Below are positions 10,469-56,489 of a stretch of 64,000 bases of DNA, one piece after another (the first letter of the stretch is position 1; each line of letters opens with the position of its first letter). Source of the DNA: Parvularcula maris (lineage in GTDB: Bacteria > Pseudomonadota > Alphaproteobacteria > Caulobacterales > Parvularculaceae); contig NZ_JANIBC010000002.1 of assembly GCF_024505085.1 (NCBI RefSeq), positions 177,016-241,015 on the forward strand. Reading direction: 5' to 3'. The position numbers were made by a program, and so were the translations under genes. Below the pieces are notes generated by a model. It was not told where the DNA came from and ran no database searches. It saw only the letters and a list, made by a program, of their open reading frames with translations.

Positions 10469-10583
10469 TGAGCGAATTTGTCGCACCGTGAGCGATACTG
10501 ACACATTGCTCACTCTCCACGGCCCACGTTATCAGAGAGGGCATCTTTCGTCATGGGTGAACTAGGGCTAGGGTTCAGGGCAA

Positions 10584-15013: not shown

Positions 15014-16918
15014 TTAACCGGTCGTTAAGCCAGGAGGAACTGGGTTCTGCTCGAGGATCTCCTCCTTGCGGGCCTTGATCTGGTCCGTATCCCCTGCTGG
15101 CTGCGTGCGGCCCTCGGCCACCTCTGGCGGAACATAGGCCAGCACGCGGTCGCCAAGCTTAGGGATGAGGGGGCTGTCCGAGGTCGCAAAGACGATCTGC
15201 TCGTCGCGCTCGATCAGCATCATCAGGCTTTCGTCCCCCAGCGCCTCTTTCAGCATCTCCGCCGTGTACTCTTCGGAGACGCGGGTGAGCTGGAAGGCCC
15301 AGCCGTTATAGTGGCGCTGCATCAGCTCATCGAGGGAGACCGGCTTGCCGAAGAGCGAGCGGCCCTGAAGCGCGTAGGAGACGGCGCGGCGGTGCTCGCC
15401 CGTGCCCTTCGAGGAGAGCTGGAAGGTGCGGGTGCGGTCGAGCTCGTGGGCGAGGTCGGTGCAGACGAGGGCGTTGTGGCTGTCATTGGCCGTCACGGCC
15501 AAGAGCGTGTCGTAGCGGACGAACTCCACATGATGCTCGGTCACCTCGGAGAGGATCTCGCCGTAGAACGTCTCGAGCCCGGCGTTCCTGGCCGAACGGA
15601 GGGCACGGTAGCTCGAGTCGGAGATGAGGACCGGGATGCCCATCTCGCGCAGCTTCTCGCCCAGGGCCGTCGACCAGGCCGAACCGCCGACGATGAGGAA
15701 GCCCGGCCGCCCCGCCTGGGCGAGGCCCAAGGCCCGCGCCAGGGGCGTGATCGAGAAGCCGTGGGCGATGACGGTGGCGAAGACCATGGCGAAGGCCAGC
15801 GGCACCATCTTCTCGCCGTCTTCATAGCCGATCTCCACCATCTTGGCGGCGAAGAGGCCCGAGACCGCCACGGCGACGATGCCCCTCGGCGCGATCCAGC
15901 CGACGAGCAGCCGCTCCTTGAAGGTGGGGTTGGTGCCGATCATGGAGAGGAAGACGGCGATCGGCCTCACCAGAAGCAGCATGGCCAGCACGAACAAGCC
16001 GTCCTGGAGGGTCAGGCTGGTCAGGGTCTCAATGGTGAGGTTCGCCGTCAGGACGACGAACACGCCGGAGACGAAGAGAACGGCGATGTTCTCCTTGAAC
16101 TGGCGAAGCTGGTTGATCGAGGGCAGCTTGGCGTTGGCCAGGGTTACGCCCATGGCGGTGACGGAGAGAAGGCCGCCCTCCTCCTGAAAGCCGTTGGCGA
16201 CCGCGAAGCAGACCAGCACCGAGCCGAGCAGCACAGGCGTCTTGAGGAACTCCGGCACCCAGCCCTTGCGGAAGGCCTGAGCTGCGAAAAGGCCCATGAT
16301 GACGCCGAGCCCGGTAGAGAGGAGCGCGCCCAGGATGAGGCTGCCGATGACCTGGTAGCTCGCCACGTCGACGCCGATATGGGCGATGTGCAGCGTCTCA
16401 TAGACGAAGACGGCGAGGAGCGCGCCGAGGGGGTCGTTGACGATCCCCTCCCAGCGCAGCAGCGTCGCTGGGCGGCTGGACAGCTTCGCCTGACGCAGGA
16501 GCGGCATGATGACGGTGGGGCCGGTGACGACCATGATGCCGGAGAAGAGTGCCGCGGTCTCGAAGGAGAGACCTGCGATCTTCCAGGCGGCCAGGAAACC
16601 GAGGCCCCAAGCGATGAAGACGCCGGGGAAGACGAGGCGCCTGACACCGCGCCCGACCTCGCGCAGCTCGTCGAATTTGAGCTGCAGGCCCCCTTCGAAG
16701 AGGATGATGCCGACCGCAATGGAGATGAGCGGCTGGTAGAGCTCGCCGAAGCTCTCTTCGGGCCTGATCCATCCGAACACGGGACCGATCAGGATGCCCG
16801 CGATGGACATCAGGACGATGGCCGGAAGGTTGAAACGCCAGGCCAGCCACTGGGCGGCGATGCCCGCGAAGCCGATCAGCGTGACGACGAAGACGATGTT
16901 GTCCAAGGACGGCTCCAA
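15014..16918 (-). CDS. CPA1 Na+/H+ antiporter with C-terminal TrkA-N/RCK-like domain
   Basis: 634 residues from a TTG at 16918. About 12-13 membrane helices (residues 5-405) include 'WEGIVNDPLGALLAV', the ND motif of electroneutral NhaP-type antiporters. A cytoplasmic nucleotide-binding domain (about 415-530, 'FLIVGGSAWSTALGEKL') and a C-terminal TrkA-C-like part follow. The glycine-rich loop is GGSAWS, not the canonical GxGxxG, so ligand binding may be altered. It exports Na+ in exchange for H+. It fits a marine lifestyle and the Na+-pumping rhodopsin in this window, but is not linked to it. Confidence 0.88.
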   Translation of the reverse strand: MEPSLDNIVFVVTLIGFAGIAAQWLAWRFNLPAIVLMSIAGILIGPVFGWIRPEESFGELYQPLISIAVGIILFEGGLQLKFDELREVGRGVRRLVFPGVFIAWGLGFLAAWKIAGLSFETAALFSGIMVVTGPTVIMPLLRQAKLSSRPATLLRWEGIVNDPLGALLAVFVYETLHIAHIGVDVASYQVIGSLILGALLSTGLGVIMGLFAAQAFRKGWVPEFLKTPVLLGSVLVCFAVANGFQEEGGLLSVTAMGVTLANAKLPSINQLRQFKENIAVLFVSGVFVVLTANLTIETLTSLTLQDGLFVLAMLLLVRPIAVFLSMIGTNPTFKERLLVGWIAPRGIVAVAVSGLFAAKMVEIGYEDGEKMVPLAFAMVFATVIAHGFSITPLARALGLAQAGRPGFLIVGGSAWSTALGEKLREMGIPVLISDSSYRALRSARNAGLETFYGEILSEVTEHHVEFVRYDTLLAVTANDSHNALVCTDLAHELDRTRTFQLSSKGTGEHRRAVSYALQGRSLFGKPVSLDELMQRHYNGWAFQLTRVSEEYTAEMLKEALGDESLMMLIERDEQIVFATSDSPLIPKLGDRVLAYVPPEVAEGRTQPAGDTDQIKARKEEILEQNPVPPGLTTG

Positions 16919-50570: not shown

Positions 50571-51119
50571 ATGGACGAGAAAGAGCGGATATTCTTCGCA
50601 GACTGGGAGGGGATCGCCGAAGTCGTCATCGTCTCGCCACTGATCTACGGCCTGGTGATCCTGTTCGTGCGCATCAGCGGTAAGCGGACGACCGGCGAGA
50701 TGAACAATTTCGACTGGATCCTGACGGTGGCCATGGGCTCCATCGTCGCGTCCGGCATCGTCATCAACACAGTCGAGCTGGCCGAGACCGTCAGCGCCAT
50801 CGCGGTCCTGATCGGCCTTCAGTACATCCTGACCAAGCTGACCCACCGCTCCTCGAAGGTGTCGAACATCGTCAAATCGCCGCCGAGGGTCCTCGTCTAC
50901 CGGGGGGTCATCGACGAGAAGGCGATGCAGGCGGAGCGGATCACGAAGGAGGAGATCGCCGCCGTTCTGCGGCAGAACGACATTCCCCGCTTGGACGCCA
51001 TCGAGTTTCTTGTCCTCGAGAATACCGGCCAGTTCAGCATCCTCTCACGGGTGGCGGCGGAGGCGAGCGTGGACGAGGTGGTGATGACCGAAGAGATGAG
51101 AAACGTAGCGCAGCGCTAG
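50571..51119 (+). CDS. DUF421 (YetF-like) membrane protein
   Basis: 182 residues. Three membrane helices (about 15-90) lead to a cytosolic YetF domain: 'SGKRTTGEMNNFDWILTVAMGSIVASGI' then 'RVLVYRGVIDEKAMQAERITKEEIAAVLRQ'. The function of the family is unclear. It lies 126 bases before the first rhodopsin gene on the same strand and might share its transcript, though the gap is large. Confidence 0.9.
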   Translation: MDEKERIFFADWEGIAEVVIVSPLIYGLVILFVRISGKRTTGEMNNFDWILTVAMGSIVASGIVINTVELAETVSAIAVLIGLQYILTKLTHRSSKVSNIVKSPPRVLVYRGVIDEKAMQAERITKEEIAAVLRQNDIPRLDAIEFLVLENTGQFSILSRVAAEASVDEVVMTEEMRNVAQR

Positions 51120-51245: not shown

Positions 51246-52127
51246 ATGGACGCGCTTCACCACAACATCGAAAACTTCGCGGCGTTTCCGCATCCGGCCT
51301 ACCAGCTCATCGCCGTGCTGCTGATGGTGGGCTACGGAGCGCATCTTGCGTTCTCGGTCTACTTCCTGGCCGCCTCCACCCAGATCGCGCCGCGCTACCG
51401 CCTGGTGCCGTGGTTCTCCGCGGTGGTGATGCTGGCGGCGGGCCTCAGCCTCTTCCGCGAGTTCTCGGTATGGAGCGAGACCATGGTCTTCACCGGCGAG
51501 GACTGGCGCCGGGACAGCCAGGAGGTGTTCTCCAACGCCTACCGCTACGCCAACTGGACGATCACCATCCCGCTCCTCCTGGCGCAGCTCCTGATCGCGT
51601 TGAAGCTGCCCCGAGCCAGCATGCACAAGCTGCTGCCCAAGCTGGTCCTCGCCGCGATCGCGATGATCTGGACGGGTCTCGTCGGCCAGTTCTACGAGCA
51701 GGCCAGCATCGCCACGATGCTCGTCTGGGGCGCGATCTCCACCGTGCCCTTCGTCTATCTCGTCATCGCGGTGCAGAAGGAGCTGAAGGCCGCAAAGGGC
51801 CGCACCCCCGTCATTCTGCACCCGTGGCTGGACAAGATGTTCCCCTACTTCCTGTTCTTCTGGGGCCTCTACGCCCTGGCCTATATGGTGCCTGCCTTCT
51901 CCGACGGCGCGGCGGCTGCGGTGGTCAGGCAGTTCATGTACACCGTGGCGGACGTCTTCTCGAAGCTGGTCTACGGCCTCATCCTGTCCCGCTTCGTCCT
52001 GAGGCTGAGCGCTGCGGAGGGCTACGCCCCCGCTGCCGAGGCCCTCGGCCCCGACTGGTCGGCAACCGAGCCCGTGCCGGCTCACGCGACGACCGCACCT
52101 GCCGCCACGGCGGCCGAGACGGCCTAA
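51246..52127 (+). CDS. NTQ-motif rhodopsin, predicted light-driven inward Cl- pump
   Basis: 293 residues, seven helices. Helix C reads 'YRYANWTITIPLLLAQ': Arg100, Asn103, Thr107 and Gln114 occupy the places of bacteriorhodopsin R82, D85, T89 and D96, giving the NTQ motif known from marine chloride pumps. The retinal Schiff-base Lys240 and counterion Asp236 are in 'VADVFSKLVYG'. A ~35-residue Ala/Pro-rich tail follows helix G. It is first of four close genes; the retinal synthase starts four bases after its stop. Chloride transport is inferred from the motif. Confidence 0.93.
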   Translation: MDALHHNIENFAAFPHPAYQLIAVLLMVGYGAHLAFSVYFLAASTQIAPRYRLVPWFSAVVMLAAGLSLFREFSVWSETMVFTGEDWRRDSQEVFSNAYRYANWTITIPLLLAQLLIALKLPRASMHKLLPKLVLAAIAMIWTGLVGQFYEQASIATMLVWGAISTVPFVYLVIAVQKELKAAKGRTPVILHPWLDKMFPYFLFFWGLYALAYMVPAFSDGAAAAVVRQFMYTVADVFSKLVYGLILSRFVLRLSAAEGYAPAAEALGPDWSATEPVPAHATTAPAATAAETA

Positions 52128-52131
52128 ACGG

Positions 52132-53064
52132 GTGGCGCTTCTCCCCCGCCTTCCGAGCCCAGGCTTCGCCCTGTTAGCGCTCGCCGGGGCGGGGGCGGCG
52201 CTTACGGCGCTGCCGAGCTCCTGGACCTTGGCGGCGGCCTTCCTGCTGATCGGCGTGATCGGCCTGCCCCACGGAGCCTCGGACACCGCACTGGCAGCGC
52301 CGCGTTGGCGAGCGGCCTTCGGGAAGGCAGGACTTGCGCTGTTCCTGGCGGCCTATCTCGGAGCGGCGCTGGCTGCCTATCTCTTCTGGGTCAGCTTTCC
52401 TTTGGCCGGGCTGGCTGCCTTCCTGGTTCTCTCCGCCTACCATTTCGGTCACGACGACCTGCCGCCGCCCTTGAGAGGGAAGAGCGCGCTGGGCAGCCCC
52501 GAGGGCTGGCTTCGTGGAACGATGGTCCTCGGCGGCCCGGCGATCTTCTACCGGCCGGAGGTACAAGCGATCTTCGAAGCGCTTCTTCCTGGGGCGGAAG
52601 GTGAGGGTGCGGCCCTTCTCGCCTCCTTGCTTCAGATCGCTGGTCTCCTCGCTCTGCCGCTGAGCCTCGCTGCCGCCGTCCGCGACCGAGGGCAGCGCAG
52701 CAGTTTCCTTCGCTCCGTCATCTGTCTGGTGCCGTTTCCGCCGCTCGTCGGCTTCTCGCTCTACTTCGCCTTCGTCCATAGCCTGCATCAGACCGCCGAG
52801 CGCGGCACCAGGATGGGCGCAGGGTCGCTGCGGGACTATCTGGGGCGTTGCTGGCCGTTCGTAGCCGGAGGGGTCTTGGTGATGGCCGTTGTCGGCTCTG
52901 CCCTGGTCGCTGCGCCCGAGCGGGCCACCGCGACCCTCTTCATCGGCCTGGCCGTCCTGACCTTTCCCCATATCCTCTTCGGCGGCACGCCGAGGTCTGC
53001 GCCGGTCCGTAAAGATCCGTACCCGCCTCGTACCCTCACCCGCCTTTCTTGTGAAACGCCCTGA
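52132..53064 (+). CDS. blh: Blh/Brp beta-carotene 15,15'-dioxygenase
   Basis: 310 residues from a GTG, coupled to the upstream rhodopsin gene. It is a polytopic membrane protein with the Blh iron-binding histidines in 'GLPHGASD' (His47), 'SAYHFGHDD' (His104, His107), 'FVHSLHQ' (His216, His219) and 'LTFPHILFGG' (His280). It cleaves beta-carotene into two retinals, the chromophore of the rhodopsins on both sides. No carotenoid synthesis genes lie in the window, so beta-carotene must come from elsewhere in the genome. Confidence 0.93.
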   Translation: MALLPRLPSPGFALLALAGAGAALTALPSSWTLAAAFLLIGVIGLPHGASDTALAAPRWRAAFGKAGLALFLAAYLGAALAAYLFWVSFPLAGLAAFLVLSAYHFGHDDLPPPLRGKSALGSPEGWLRGTMVLGGPAIFYRPEVQAIFEALLPGAEGEGAALLASLLQIAGLLALPLSLAAAVRDRGQRSSFLRSVICLVPFPPLVGFSLYFAFVHSLHQTAERGTRMGAGSLRDYLGRCWPFVAGGVLVMAVVGSALVAAPERATATLFIGLAVLTFPHILFGGTPRSAPVRKDPYPPRTLTRLSCETP

Positions 53065-53081
53065 AACTAAAGGACCAACCC

Positions 53082-53939
53082 ATGCCGAACATCGAGAACT
53101 ACCTCACCTTCGAGCACTGGCATTTCGACTATGTCCGGCACATCTTCACCCTGACGGTTGCGGTGTTCGGCGCGGGGCTCGTCTACTTCCTCCTCAGCGC
53201 AAGGAACGTCGCGCCTCGATACCGGGCGAGCTCCTACCTCTCTGCGGTCGTCATGGTTTCGGCCACCTACGAGATATTCTCCTTGTGGCTCGGATGGGAC
53301 AGCTCCTTCGCCTATAACGGCAGCGAGTGGGCACTGGTCGAGGGGAAGGTCTTCTCCAACGGCTACCGCTACGCCAACTGGTGTATCGACGTGCCGATGC
53401 TCCTGACCCAGCTCCTCATCGTCGCGGGCTTTGCAGGACAGAAGTTCTGGTCGAACTGGTGGCAGTTCACCGCCGCCGGTCTCCTGATGATCTTCACGGG
53501 TTATATCGGCCAGTACTACGAGCCGCAGGTGGCCGGTCTTGAAGACGGCTCCACCATGCCGTTCTGGATCTGGGGCCTCGTCAGCTCGGTCTTCTACGCC
53601 TGGATCGTCTACCTGACCATCAAGGTCACGCTGAACCCCCATGGCGATATGCCGGTGCGGGCACGTAAAGAGCTGCGCAATGTGGGTATCCTGCTGATCG
53701 TCTCCTGGACCCTCTACCCCTTCGCCTACGGATGGCCGGCCTGGCAGCCGGATGCGGACGGTGTCGTCGTGCGCCAGACGCTCTACACCCTCGCCGACAT
53801 CTTCTCGAAGCTCGTCTACGGCGTGATGCTGGGCCGGGTGGCCCTGATGCGCAGCGCCTATGAGGGCTTCCCCTCGGCCATCGAGGTCGGCGGGGACCAG
53901 GCACTCACCAGCGATGAGAGAAAGCGTATCACAGCCTGA
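53082..53939 (+). CDS. NDQ-motif rhodopsin, predicted light-driven outward Na+ pump (KR2-like)
   Basis: 285 residues, seven helices, clearly similar to Krokinobacter KR2. Helix C 'YRYANWCIDVPMLLTQ' gives Arg96, Asn99, Asp103 and Gln110, the NDQ motif of sodium pumps. Lys243 and Asp239 are in 'LADIFSKLVYG'. By alignment by eye, KR2 His30 is kept (His20) and Gly263 is kept (Gly251), but Asn61 of the uptake filter is Ser51 and the outer Na+ ligand Asp102 is Lys89. A good AAAGGA site lies before the ATG. The TrkH gene starts at the very next base after its stop. Confidence 0.94.
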   Translation: MPNIENYLTFEHWHFDYVRHIFTLTVAVFGAGLVYFLLSARNVAPRYRASSYLSAVVMVSATYEIFSLWLGWDSSFAYNGSEWALVEGKVFSNGYRYANWCIDVPMLLTQLLIVAGFAGQKFWSNWWQFTAAGLLMIFTGYIGQYYEPQVAGLEDGSTMPFWIWGLVSSVFYAWIVYLTIKVTLNPHGDMPVRARKELRNVGILLIVSWTLYPFAYGWPAWQPDADGVVVRQTLYTLADIFSKLVYGVMLGRVALMRSAYEGFPSAIEVGGDQALTSDERKRITA

Positions 53940-55301
53940 ATGGAGCGCCGCTTTCGTTTACGGACCGTTCTGCTGCTGGCGCTGCGGTTCGGCCCGGCCC
54001 TCGTCCTTCTTCTCACCCCTGCCCTCCTCGTGGCTCTGTTCGGCCGCGAGGTCGGCGTGGCGCTCGTGCTCGTCGCCGGTATCGTGCCGTGTATCGGAGC
54101 TAGCCTCGCCATTCGCCGACGCCCTCCCCCGAAGGAGACCTCGGCAGCCGAGTCCGTCGCCGCCGTCACCCTGACCTTCGCCCTGGCGGGGGTCCTCCTG
54201 GCGCCGGTCTATCTAGTCAGTGGTCTGGGCTTTACCGATGCGGTGTTCGAGGGTGTTTCCGGCATCACCTCGACGGGTCTCTCACGCTACAGCGCGCCCG
54301 AAGACCTCGCTTTTCCGGTTCTCTTCACGAGATCATGGAGCCAGTGGGTCGGCGGCTACGCCATCATCGCGCTGGTCGCAGCGGTGCTCTCACCGGCCAT
54401 GAAAGCCAGCAAGGATATCGGCGCTCTCAACGTCGAGGCCGATGACCGCGACATGAAAAAGGCGAGCCTCGTGACCCTCGCCGCCTATACCGGGCTGACG
54501 GCGCTCGTCATCGTCGGTCTCCTCGTCACCGGCACCGATGCGAAGAACGCCGTCCTCTTCGGCCTGTCGGCCACACCCACCGGCGGCTTCGCTCCCCATG
54601 CGGACAGCGCCGCCATCCTCAGCCGCGAGAGTGTGATCGTCCTCGCCCTCTTCTTCACGCTCAGCGCCCTGGCCCTGACCGATCTCACCATGCCCGACGG
54701 CAAGAGAAGGGAGCGGCTAGGCAAGCTCGGTGCCGTTCTCCTCGCCATTATCGCCCTGACCATGGTCAGCACGGTCACCCTGCGCTTCGGCGATGATCTG
54801 AGCTGGTTCGACAGCGCCTTCACCGCCCTCTCCGCGCAGACGACCACGGGCTTCAACACCGTGCCGACGGACGAGCTGAGCCTTAGCAGCCGATCGGTCC
54901 TGATGCTGAACATGTTCGTGGGCGGTGATGTCGGCTCGTCGGGCGGCGGGGTCAAGATCCTGCGCCTTCTCATGCTGTCGGCACTGGTGCTGCACATCGC
55001 CAAACACGCCCGGCGGGAGTTCTGGCCCGATGACAGCGTCCGCATCACCCTCGCCGTGCTTGCGGGGTTCGTCATCGTCATCATCGTCGGAGCCCTACTC
55101 ATGATGCTGCTCGGCGCATCCTTCATGGACGCCCTGTTCGAGATGATCTCGGCGGTAGGCACGGTGGGCCTTTCCGCAGGACTGACAGGAGACCCGCCTC
55201 ACCAAGCGGCGATCTGGGTCCTGACGATAGGGATGATCCTGGGCCGAACCGAAGTCCTCCTGCTCGCGCTGCTGCTTGTCAGGGGAAGGAAGAGGAGCTG
55301 A
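53940..55301 (+). CDS. TrkH-family K+ transporter
   Basis: 453 residues with the four MPM repeats of TrkH/KtrB. Selectivity-filter glycines appear in 'SGITSTGLSRY' (about 98-108), 'ATPTGGFAPH', 'AQTTTGFNTVP' and 'AVGTVGLSAGL'. The ATG follows the rhodopsin TGA without a gap, so translation is coupled. No trkA gene is adjacent. TrkH admits K+ driven by the membrane potential, which both neighbouring light pumps would increase. The linkage to rhodopsins is the unusual point. Confidence 0.93.
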   Translation: MERRFRLRTVLLLALRFGPALVLLLTPALLVALFGREVGVALVLVAGIVPCIGASLAIRRRPPPKETSAAESVAAVTLTFALAGVLLAPVYLVSGLGFTDAVFEGVSGITSTGLSRYSAPEDLAFPVLFTRSWSQWVGGYAIIALVAAVLSPAMKASKDIGALNVEADDRDMKKASLVTLAAYTGLTALVIVGLLVTGTDAKNAVLFGLSATPTGGFAPHADSAAILSRESVIVLALFFTLSALALTDLTMPDGKRRERLGKLGAVLLAIIALTMVSTVTLRFGDDLSWFDSAFTALSAQTTTGFNTVPTDELSLSSRSVLMLNMFVGGDVGSSGGGVKILRLLMLSALVLHIAKHARREFWPDDSVRITLAVLAGFVIVIIVGALLMMLLGASFMDALFEMISAVGTVGLSAGLTGDPPHQAAIWVLTIGMILGRTEVLLLALLLVRGRKRS

Positions 55302-55382
55302 CGGCGCAGCGGCAGACGATACACGCCGGAAGGTTCGAACCCTCACCGAGCAAAGTCGACAGATTGGCGTTAGGCAGCCCGC

Positions 55383-56489
55383 CTAACGCCGTTCGACTTC
55401 GAGTTTCTGGACCTCCGTGCCGATCGCCCAGATGGTTGCGCCATCTGGATGCTCGACCACGGAGAAGTTGTTGGCGGCCGGTGCGATCGGTACGGGCTGC
55501 CAGCTAGAGCCGCCATCCGTGGTCTGAAAGCCTCCGGCCATCGTGCCGACGAAGCCGGACCGCTCGTCCACAAAGCCGATCCCGAACTGCCGAGCGTTGG
55601 CGTTCTCGACGAGGGGCAGCTCCGTCCACGTCCTGCCGCCGTCTTCGGTCTTGAGGACGAGCTGCTGGGGGTTGCTTGGATCGTAGGACATGACAGTAGC
55701 GTAGCCTGTCTCTTCCGTGGGAAAGCTCGCCTTCCAGATCAGCTCGCCAGGACGGCCTGAACGGTAGACCTCGCTCCAGCTCTCACCGCCGTCTTCGGTC
55801 CGCAGGATCAGCCCTTCGGTAGATGCGGGGTCACGCCCCGTCGAGGCGAAGACGAGGCCTTCGAACTCGGTGAGGAAGACCACGTCGAGCACCATCCCGG
55901 CCTGGGCCGAAAGGTCGATCGAGGTGAAGCTTTCGCCGCCATCCACCGATCGCAGCATCCCGGTAGGGCCGCCAACCCGCCCGGCGGCGTGGATGATCAT
56001 CCGGTTTTCGAGCTTGCCTTGAAACACCCGGTCCGTTCGAAGGATGTCGATGGCGCAGACGCCGGTTATCGGAGCTCCGTCAACGGCTACGGGCGTCCAG
56101 GTCGAACCGCCATCATCGGTTCGGTAGAGCGGTGTGTCATCGGACACGCCCGGATAGTAGTCCGTACCGATATTGCCGACGAACCCTGTCCTATCATCGA
56201 GGAAAGCCAATGCCCTGATGAACGTGCCCGGCTGATGGCGGACGAGGCTCCACGAAGCACCGCCATCGGTCGTGGCGTAGAGCTCGCCCTGTCCCGTTCC
56301 GTACCAAGCGCGGTCGCGGTCGACGACGGCGATATCGTCACGTTTGCCTGGGTAGGCTTCGGTATCGAGGGTCTGCCAGGCACTGCCCGTCAGATCGTAA
56401 CCACGCGGCGTGGAAGGAGGGTCAACCGGTGTGCTGGCACACGCCGTCAACACGAGCACACCGATGGAAGGCACCAGTTTGTTCATCAT
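55383..56489 (-). CDS. Asp-box (BNR) beta-propeller lipoprotein
   Basis: 368 residues from an ATG five bases after GGAGG; a second ATG follows at once. The signal peptide ends in the lipobox LTAC. Six Asp-box repeats of the form TxDGGxSW occur ('ATTDGGASW', 'RTDDGGSTW', 'RSVDGGESF', 'RTEDGGESW', 'KTEDGGRTW', 'QTTDGGSSW'), indicating a sialidase/Ycf48-like propeller. Catalytic sialidase residues are not evident. The function is unknown and probably binding. Confidence 0.85.
   Translation of the reverse strand: MMNKLVPSIGVLVLTACASTPVDPPSTPRGYDLTGSAWQTLDTEAYPGKRDDIAVVDRDRAWYGTGQGELYATTDGGASWSLVRHQPGTFIRALAFLDDRTGFVGNIGTDYYPGVSDDTPLYRTDDGGSTWTPVAVDGAPITGVCAIDILRTDRVFQGKLENRMIIHAAGRVGGPTGMLRSVDGGESFTSIDLSAQAGMVLDVVFLTEFEGLVFASTGRDPASTEGLILRTEDGGESWSEVYRSGRPGELIWKASFPTEETGYATVMSYDPSNPQQLVLKTEDGGRTWTELPLVENANARQFGIGFVDERSGFVGTMAGGFQTTDGGSSWQPVPIAPAANNFSVVEHPDGATIWAIGTEVQKLEVERR

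Follow-up and report, generated by a model that had tools for sequence, protein, structure and literature searches.

The stretch of DNA analyzed here, referred to below as the window, comprises 64,000 nucleotides of contig NZ_JANIBC010000002.1 (positions 177,016 to 241,015, forward strand) of Parvularcula maris, and contains a compact group of four plus-strand genes, at 51246-55301, that encode two rhodopsins, the retinal-forming enzyme Blh and a TrkH-family potassium uptake protein. An earlier analysis of the same DNA, made without database searches (the sequence-only reading), had described this quartet and its gaps; the coordinates are exact, and the family assignments are borne out by profile searches. 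The cluster and the hairpin that follows it are laid out as follows:

51246..52127, plus strand: NTQ-type rhodopsin, 293 amino acids (PF01036; phmmer match to 6ab9; motif alignment; NTQ grouping)
52132..53064, plus strand: Blh, beta-carotene 15,15'-dioxygenase, 310 amino acids, GTG start (TIGR03753, PF15461)
53082..53939, plus strand: NDQ-type rhodopsin, 285 amino acids (phmmer match to 8qle; motif alignment)
53940..55301, plus strand: TrkH-family cation uptake protein, 453 amino acids (PF02386; phmmer match to TrkH)
55365..55391, plus strand: hairpin of 11 pairs without a T run (RNA fold), a possible shared terminator

The spacing is operon-like, with 4 bases between the NTQ and Blh genes, 17 between the Blh and NDQ genes and none between the NDQ and TrkH genes, where the TGA stop of the former abuts the ATG of the latter. 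Judging from these gap sizes, the quartet is likely to be expressed as a single transcript. The genome (G000; 3.19 Mb in 48 contigs) was found to encode two rhodopsins, both in this cluster, and a single Blh, also at the cluster.

The neighborhoods of rhodopsin genes were compared across several overlapping sets of genomes, the larger of which are samples: 62 genomes from the family itself, searched with an NTQ rhodopsin (E 1e-10), 385 from the class, searched with an NDQ rhodopsin (1e-15), 397 of family f15 (1e-32), 40 of genus g214 (1e-52), 249 of the own order (1e-32), 18 of genus g385 (1e-32) and 396 of the order of genome G073 (query, the NDQ rhodopsin of G840; 1e-32). From one rhodopsin that is 71% identical to that of Polymorphobacter, we infer that family f15 is 'Sphingomonadaceae-like'. 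The searches yielded 42 places with NTQ rhodopsins, the window included, 6 with DTE rhodopsins, and NDQ rhodopsins in seven genomes, namely, the window genome, P. dongshanensis (G051) and P. oceani (G055), which belong to the same genus group, and G727, G840, G847 and G883. A scan of genome contigs with short patterns gave matches in P. oceani and P. dongshanensis only, two scans of viral contigs found no relative, and searches of plasmids retrieved only distant rhodopsins (27-32% identity).

At the 53 loci besides the window, TrkH-family and Blh genes were sought within 1.5 kb, with 25 TrkH-family proteins as queries for the former; the window supplied the hypothesis, and the other genomes supplied the test. 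A gene of the TrkH/KtrB family adjoins the rhodopsin gene at five of the six alphaproteobacterial NDQ loci outside the window (six of seven with it), compared with none within about 1.5 kb at the 41 other NTQ loci or the 6 DTE loci; at seven of the NTQ loci (L025-L029, L089, L090), there is no TrkH match in the entire 20-kb stretch. The NTQ gene of the window was excluded from the control because the TrkH gene starts 1.8 kb after it. The Fisher test value for 5/6 versus 0/41 is 3.9e-6, which should be taken as a guide only and not as a probability because the loci are related, two of the NTQ loci lying in a shared stretch of 97% identity. The two genes are in tandem on the same strand in the window and in loci L030, L031 and L085, and divergent, with the TrkH/KtrB gene upstream, in L086 and L087. 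The linkage of a sodium-pump rhodopsin to a potassium uptake gene, which the sequence-only reading had noticed in a single genome, thus recurs; a lack of conserved linkage, one of the outcomes that would have spoken against that reading, is not what the other genomes show.

The same is not the case for the quartet. The four-gene set is found in the window genome only and is missing from all 53 other loci, so that a conserved four-gene unit is rejected and the sequence-only reading is supported in part. P. dongshanensis and P. oceani are the only genomes of the genus group besides that of the window with both rhodopsin types; in each, a TrkH-family gene follows the NDQ gene (36.5% and 34.9% identity, respectively, to the window TrkH in tblastn), and the NTQ genes and Blh are located away from this pair, which indicates that the pair and not the quartet is shared. 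Blh is encoded immediately downstream of the NTQ rhodopsin, on the same strand, in at least 15 of the 41 other NTQ loci and lies beside the DTE rhodopsin in at least three of six, both counts being lower bounds, with no Blh queries taken from L138-L140. The arrangement in the window thus looks like a fusion of two separately recurring pairs, NTQ-Blh and NDQ-TrkH. Given that the NTQ gene is located elsewhere in the relatives and is never adjacent to TrkH in the other loci, the chloride pump is an addition to the sodium-potassium pair rather than its conserved partner.

The NDQ rhodopsin of the window scores 124.1 bits against PF01036 (cut-off 24.6), and the closest protein with a solved structure is 8qle (E 1.1e-86, phmmer), deposited as a 'bacteriorhodopsin-like protein', which we take to be ErNaR. 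The alignment places N99, D103 and Q110 in helix C, D239 in helix G, the retinal lysine at K243 and a glutamate, E64, at the position of KR2 Leu74 and ErNaR Glu64. In the alignment of 55 rhodopsins (42 NTQ, 7 NDQ and 6 DTE), all sequences retain the lysine that binds retinal, the aspartate of helix G and the arginine of helix C. Glu64 is present in all seven NDQ proteins and in none of the others; the residue there is S (37 proteins), T (4) or N (1) in the NTQ group and H in the DTE group. According to PMC11006869, NDQ proteins with Glu64 are defined as Subgroup 2, and ErNaR, a member of this subgroup, is reported to pump Na+ with negligible proton currents. The window protein, which resembles ErNaR in the NDQ motif, the additional glutamate counterion and the retinal lysine, probably pumps sodium outward, as a member of the ErNaR-like Subgroup 2. 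It differs from the account in PMC11006869 in that its gene is abutted by a TrkH gene; the words operon, genome and Trk have zero occurrences each in the main text of that paper.

The protein encoded by the abutting gene matches PF02386 with 87 bits (cut-off 27) and falls below the curated cut-off of TIGR00933 (148.6 versus 331.15 bits), which is also missed by the other five NDQ-linked proteins (165.6 to 314.7 bits). Its best match in PDB is TrkH 3pjz, presumably the Vibrio protein (E 1.4e-20), followed by KtrB (E 1.3e-16; both phmmer). The filter glycines, one per pore loop (G113, G216, G304 and G410), are invariant in all six NDQ-linked proteins; four pore-loop glycines mark K+ conduction in the TrkH/KtrB superfamily. 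The lysine of M4b is conserved in the window protein as well, so that PF02386, the four glycines and this lysine are all features in common with the TrkAH and KtrAB systems. Those systems include an RCK subunit (TrkA or KtrA), whereas none was found near the window TrkH, where a rhodopsin takes its place; several RCK-domain proteins are encoded in the genome, none of them at the cluster, and within the window the nearest such domain, matched by TrkA_N, lies 38 kb away at about 15449-15700. In the gate region of M4b, Gly-Gly-Asp is present in the three NDQ-linked TrkH proteins of Parvularcula and in none of the 22 other TrkH rows.

In an unrooted tree comprising 25 proteins of the TrkH family, taken from nine genomes, the six NDQ-linked proteins occupy three places. 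Those of the window, P. dongshanensis and P. oceani form a Parvularcula lineage (support 99/96), the one from G727 is sister to a protein of G054 without such linkage (98/97), and the one from G840 groups with that from G847 (100/100). Descent of the linked genes from one inherited gene was rejected (p 6.7e-6 for a single clade of six), as was a common clade for the linked proteins of G727, G840 and G847 (p 2e-6, for a group named after a first tree). In the 20-kb stretches compared, L085 and L086 share the NDQ gene alone (871 bp, 82% identity; blastn pieces above 150 bp); the NDQ gene of L085 is 81% identical in DNA to that of L087, and L086 and L087 are syntenic. Within the one genus to which G727, G840 and G847 belong, the pump is therefore found at two places, beside KtrB-like genes of different lineages. 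The NDQ-linked gene is the only one of the TrkH family found in G840. Of two genomes in the tree without an NDQ match, G655 has only another KtrB lineage and none of the linked genes of its genus, and G054 lacks the linked Parvularcula lineage. This distribution suggests that a sodium pump and a potassium uptake gene were repeatedly put side by side, in keeping with a light-powered exchange of Na+ for K+.

The two upstream genes of the cluster belong to well-defined families. The NTQ rhodopsin (PF01036, 114.1 bits; cut-off 24.6) is closest, among the solved proteins, to the NTQ-type chloride pump 6ab9 (E 2e-53, phmmer), has the N, T and Q residues, the arginine, the helix-G aspartate and the retinal lysine all in place, and falls together with the other NTQ proteins, 42 in total, on one side of a tree branch (99*); it is a probable inward chloride pump. 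A tandem duplication as the origin of the two window rhodopsins is rejected because they are only 37% identical and the NDQ protein groups with the seven NDQ proteins (84, not starred). Blh scores 150.3 bits against TIGR03753 (cut-off 95.25) and is also above the cut-off of PF15461. At the position of bacteriorhodopsin Pro186, the NTQ rhodopsin has alanine, as do three other NTQ proteins (four of the 42 overall, all from the same genus group), and the NDQ proteins of P. oceani and P. dongshanensis have T. In PMC7979833, a residue other than proline at this position is described as rare and as shifting the absorption to the red, and threonine is given for the P. oceani NDQ protein; by analogy, the window NTQ protein is possibly a red-shifted pump (PMC7979833).

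An NTQ gene of P. dongshanensis and P. oceani (L026 and L027, in contigs G051:C7 and G055:C23) lies within a 16.5-kb stretch that is 97% identical between the two species, surrounded by copper-resistance-like genes (CopB, a multicopper oxidase and a heavy-metal ATPase), and this stretch is likely a mobile copper island with a rhodopsin. The P. oceani assembly contains two NTQ genes, versus the one mentioned in PMC5118547.

The NDQ-TrkH pair is followed directly, in P. dongshanensis, by a gene for a KaiC-like ATPase, then by those for an HWE histidine kinase and a response-regulator-like protein (L030:11927-14793), and, in P. oceani, after one intervening opposite-strand gene, by one for a KaiC-like ATPase (L031:13120-14562); the response-regulator-like call in the former and the KaiC-like call in the latter come from inspection of the sequence alone. 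A role of these genes in light or clock signaling is possible.

The quartet is preceded by a gene for a YetF-like membrane protein (50571-51119, 126 bases before the NTQ gene) and followed by a convergent BNR/YCF48-like gene that ends at 55383. The RNA fold of 55302-55410 has an energy of -42.3 kcal/mol (z -2.65), and the 11-pair hairpin within it, located between the convergent genes, could serve both as a terminator, but is not listed among the terminator-like sites of the window scan. No sigma-70-like promoter match was found, versus 0.4 expected from shuffled sequence, and the Rfam search gave no match at gathering scores.

A lone electrogenic sodium pump charges the membrane and thereby slows itself, whereas a pathway for K+ returns the charge. 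Because the NDQ-TrkH linkage recurs with three TrkH lineages and at two places in one genus, the unit that calls for explanation is a sodium pump together with potassium uptake, and we favor, with reasonable though far from full confidence, the explanation that the functional core of the cluster is a light-driven Na+/K+ exchange pair formed by the NDQ rhodopsin and the TrkH/KtrB protein. With each photon, the rhodopsin would expel Na+, making the cell interior more negative, which would soon slow the pump; influx of K+ through the product of the neighboring gene would carry the returning charge, with light-powered exchange of internal Na+ for K+ as the net outcome. In the window, the NTQ rhodopsin and Blh, fused in front of the pair, would import Cl- and provide retinal, respectively, so that both pumps would hyperpolarize the cell, and Cl- would be loaded together with K+ in the light. 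The ion species and the direction of their transport, co-expression and charge coupling, and likewise the light dependence of K+ uptake and a role in turgor, are predicted here from knowledge of the respective families.

The likelihoods that we assign to this explanation and its rivals overlap and do not add up to one. In the first rival scenario, which we consider unlikely, the rhodopsin powers uptake of K+ that is coupled to sodium: the pump builds up an inward Na+ gradient, a Ktr-type protein uses this gradient or is stimulated by it, and voltage is not the main coupling. Ktr systems are Na+-dependent, and three of the six linked proteins, those of L085, L086 and L087, are clear relatives of KtrB (E 2.6e-48 and 2.5e-92 to solved proteins for L085 and L086, respectively, with L087 grouping with L086), but the Parvularcula lineage, the window protein included, has TrkH as its best PDB match and does not group with the KtrB-like proteins in the tree. 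Shared regulation only, with both genes in a salt-stress regulon and TrkH acting regardless of light, appears more doubtful. Export of Na+ and uptake of K+ are ordinary salt responses, and no gene for a light regulator was recognized at the window cluster, where none was sought systematically; nevertheless, the window genome, P. dongshanensis and P. oceani each encode four TrkH-family proteins (split matches counted once), one of them beside the NDQ rhodopsin, and the presence of an additional TrkH lineage beside the pump favors a dedicated role over regulation alone. Least probable of the three is adjacency without function, whereby rhodopsin cassettes move by gene transfer and settle near other membrane-protein genes, with TrkH either traveling along or marking the site of insertion: rhodopsin genes do seem mobile, as indicated by the NTQ gene in the 97% identical stretch and by the two positions of the NDQ gene within one genus, but NTQ rhodopsins from largely the same families are beside TrkH in 0 of 41 cases, and the linkage involves three TrkH lineages in two orientations.

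Several observations weigh against the light-driven exchange pair. The NDQ loci are only seven in number, come from three family groups and all belong to Alphaproteobacteria; G727, G840 and G847, which represent one genus, weigh heavily among them, and the loci are not independent events. No gene of the TrkH family lies within about 9 kb at the NDQ locus of G883 (L088); there, Blh is divergent upstream of the rhodopsin, with a gene for a Na+:dicarboxylate symporter, a user of Na+, beyond it (L088:7213-10424), and phosphatase-like and LolA genes also adjoin the NDQ gene. On the unrooted tree, the three changes may amount to one gain and two losses, and G054_C1b, the sister of the linked protein from G727 (41% identity), is itself unlinked and comes from a genome without an NDQ match. 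The window TrkH is divergent, with 35% identity to its nearest kin and about 21-26% to the others. No RCK gene was detected near any of the six linked genes (tblastn with the RCK frames of the window genome, E 1e-4), so that the usual TrkA/KtrA gating would have to be supplied from elsewhere or replaced. Finally, in the TrkH frame of P. dongshanensis, no ATG, GTG or TTG occurs before position 10581 (L030:10341-10581), which is past the start that its relatives would lead one to expect, and because homology begins upstream of that point, the gene may have a rare start or be shortened.

Parts of the system have precedents. Pairs of rhodopsin and blh genes are known, and the NTQ-Blh pair of the window is of this kind, although there it is fused to NDQ-TrkH. 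The rhodopsins of P. oceani, as listed in PMC5118547, include NDQ and NTQ proteins and the inward proton pump PoXeR (XeR). This set brings together, in a single member of the genus group of the window, sodium and chloride pumps of the two types encoded there; in P. oceani, NTQ, NDQ and Blh are encoded at separate places, unlike in the window, but the NDQ gene is beside TrkH (L031), as in the window. No paper on a rhodopsin-TrkH or rhodopsin-Ktr gene pair was found, which is weak evidence of novelty, given that few subscription papers were covered. The Na+/K+-ATPase moves Na+ out in exchange for K+. The proposed pair would work like this enzyme without being a member of its family: it consists of two proteins and is powered by light, and no homology is claimed. 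As a more tentative generalization, to which we give somewhat less than an even chance, alphaproteobacterial NDQ rhodopsins with recruited, channel-like TrkH/KtrB proteins would be dedicated two-protein light-driven Na+/K+ exchangers, a counterpart of the Na+/K+-ATPase assembled several times, and the window, with its additional chloride pump, would represent an operon for light-driven loading of KCl and expulsion of Na+.

To our knowledge, the benefit of sodium- and chloride-pump rhodopsins to their hosts is an open question. In a marine flavobacterium with three rhodopsins, growth was not stimulated by light, as reported in PMC4831467. The repeated presence of one kind of genetic partner suggests a specific function for the sodium pump that can be put to the test, namely, exchange of Na+ for K+ in the control of salt or turgor, and the NDQ rhodopsin and TrkH would make a natural pair of a pump and a counter-ion pathway for light-driven K+ loading.

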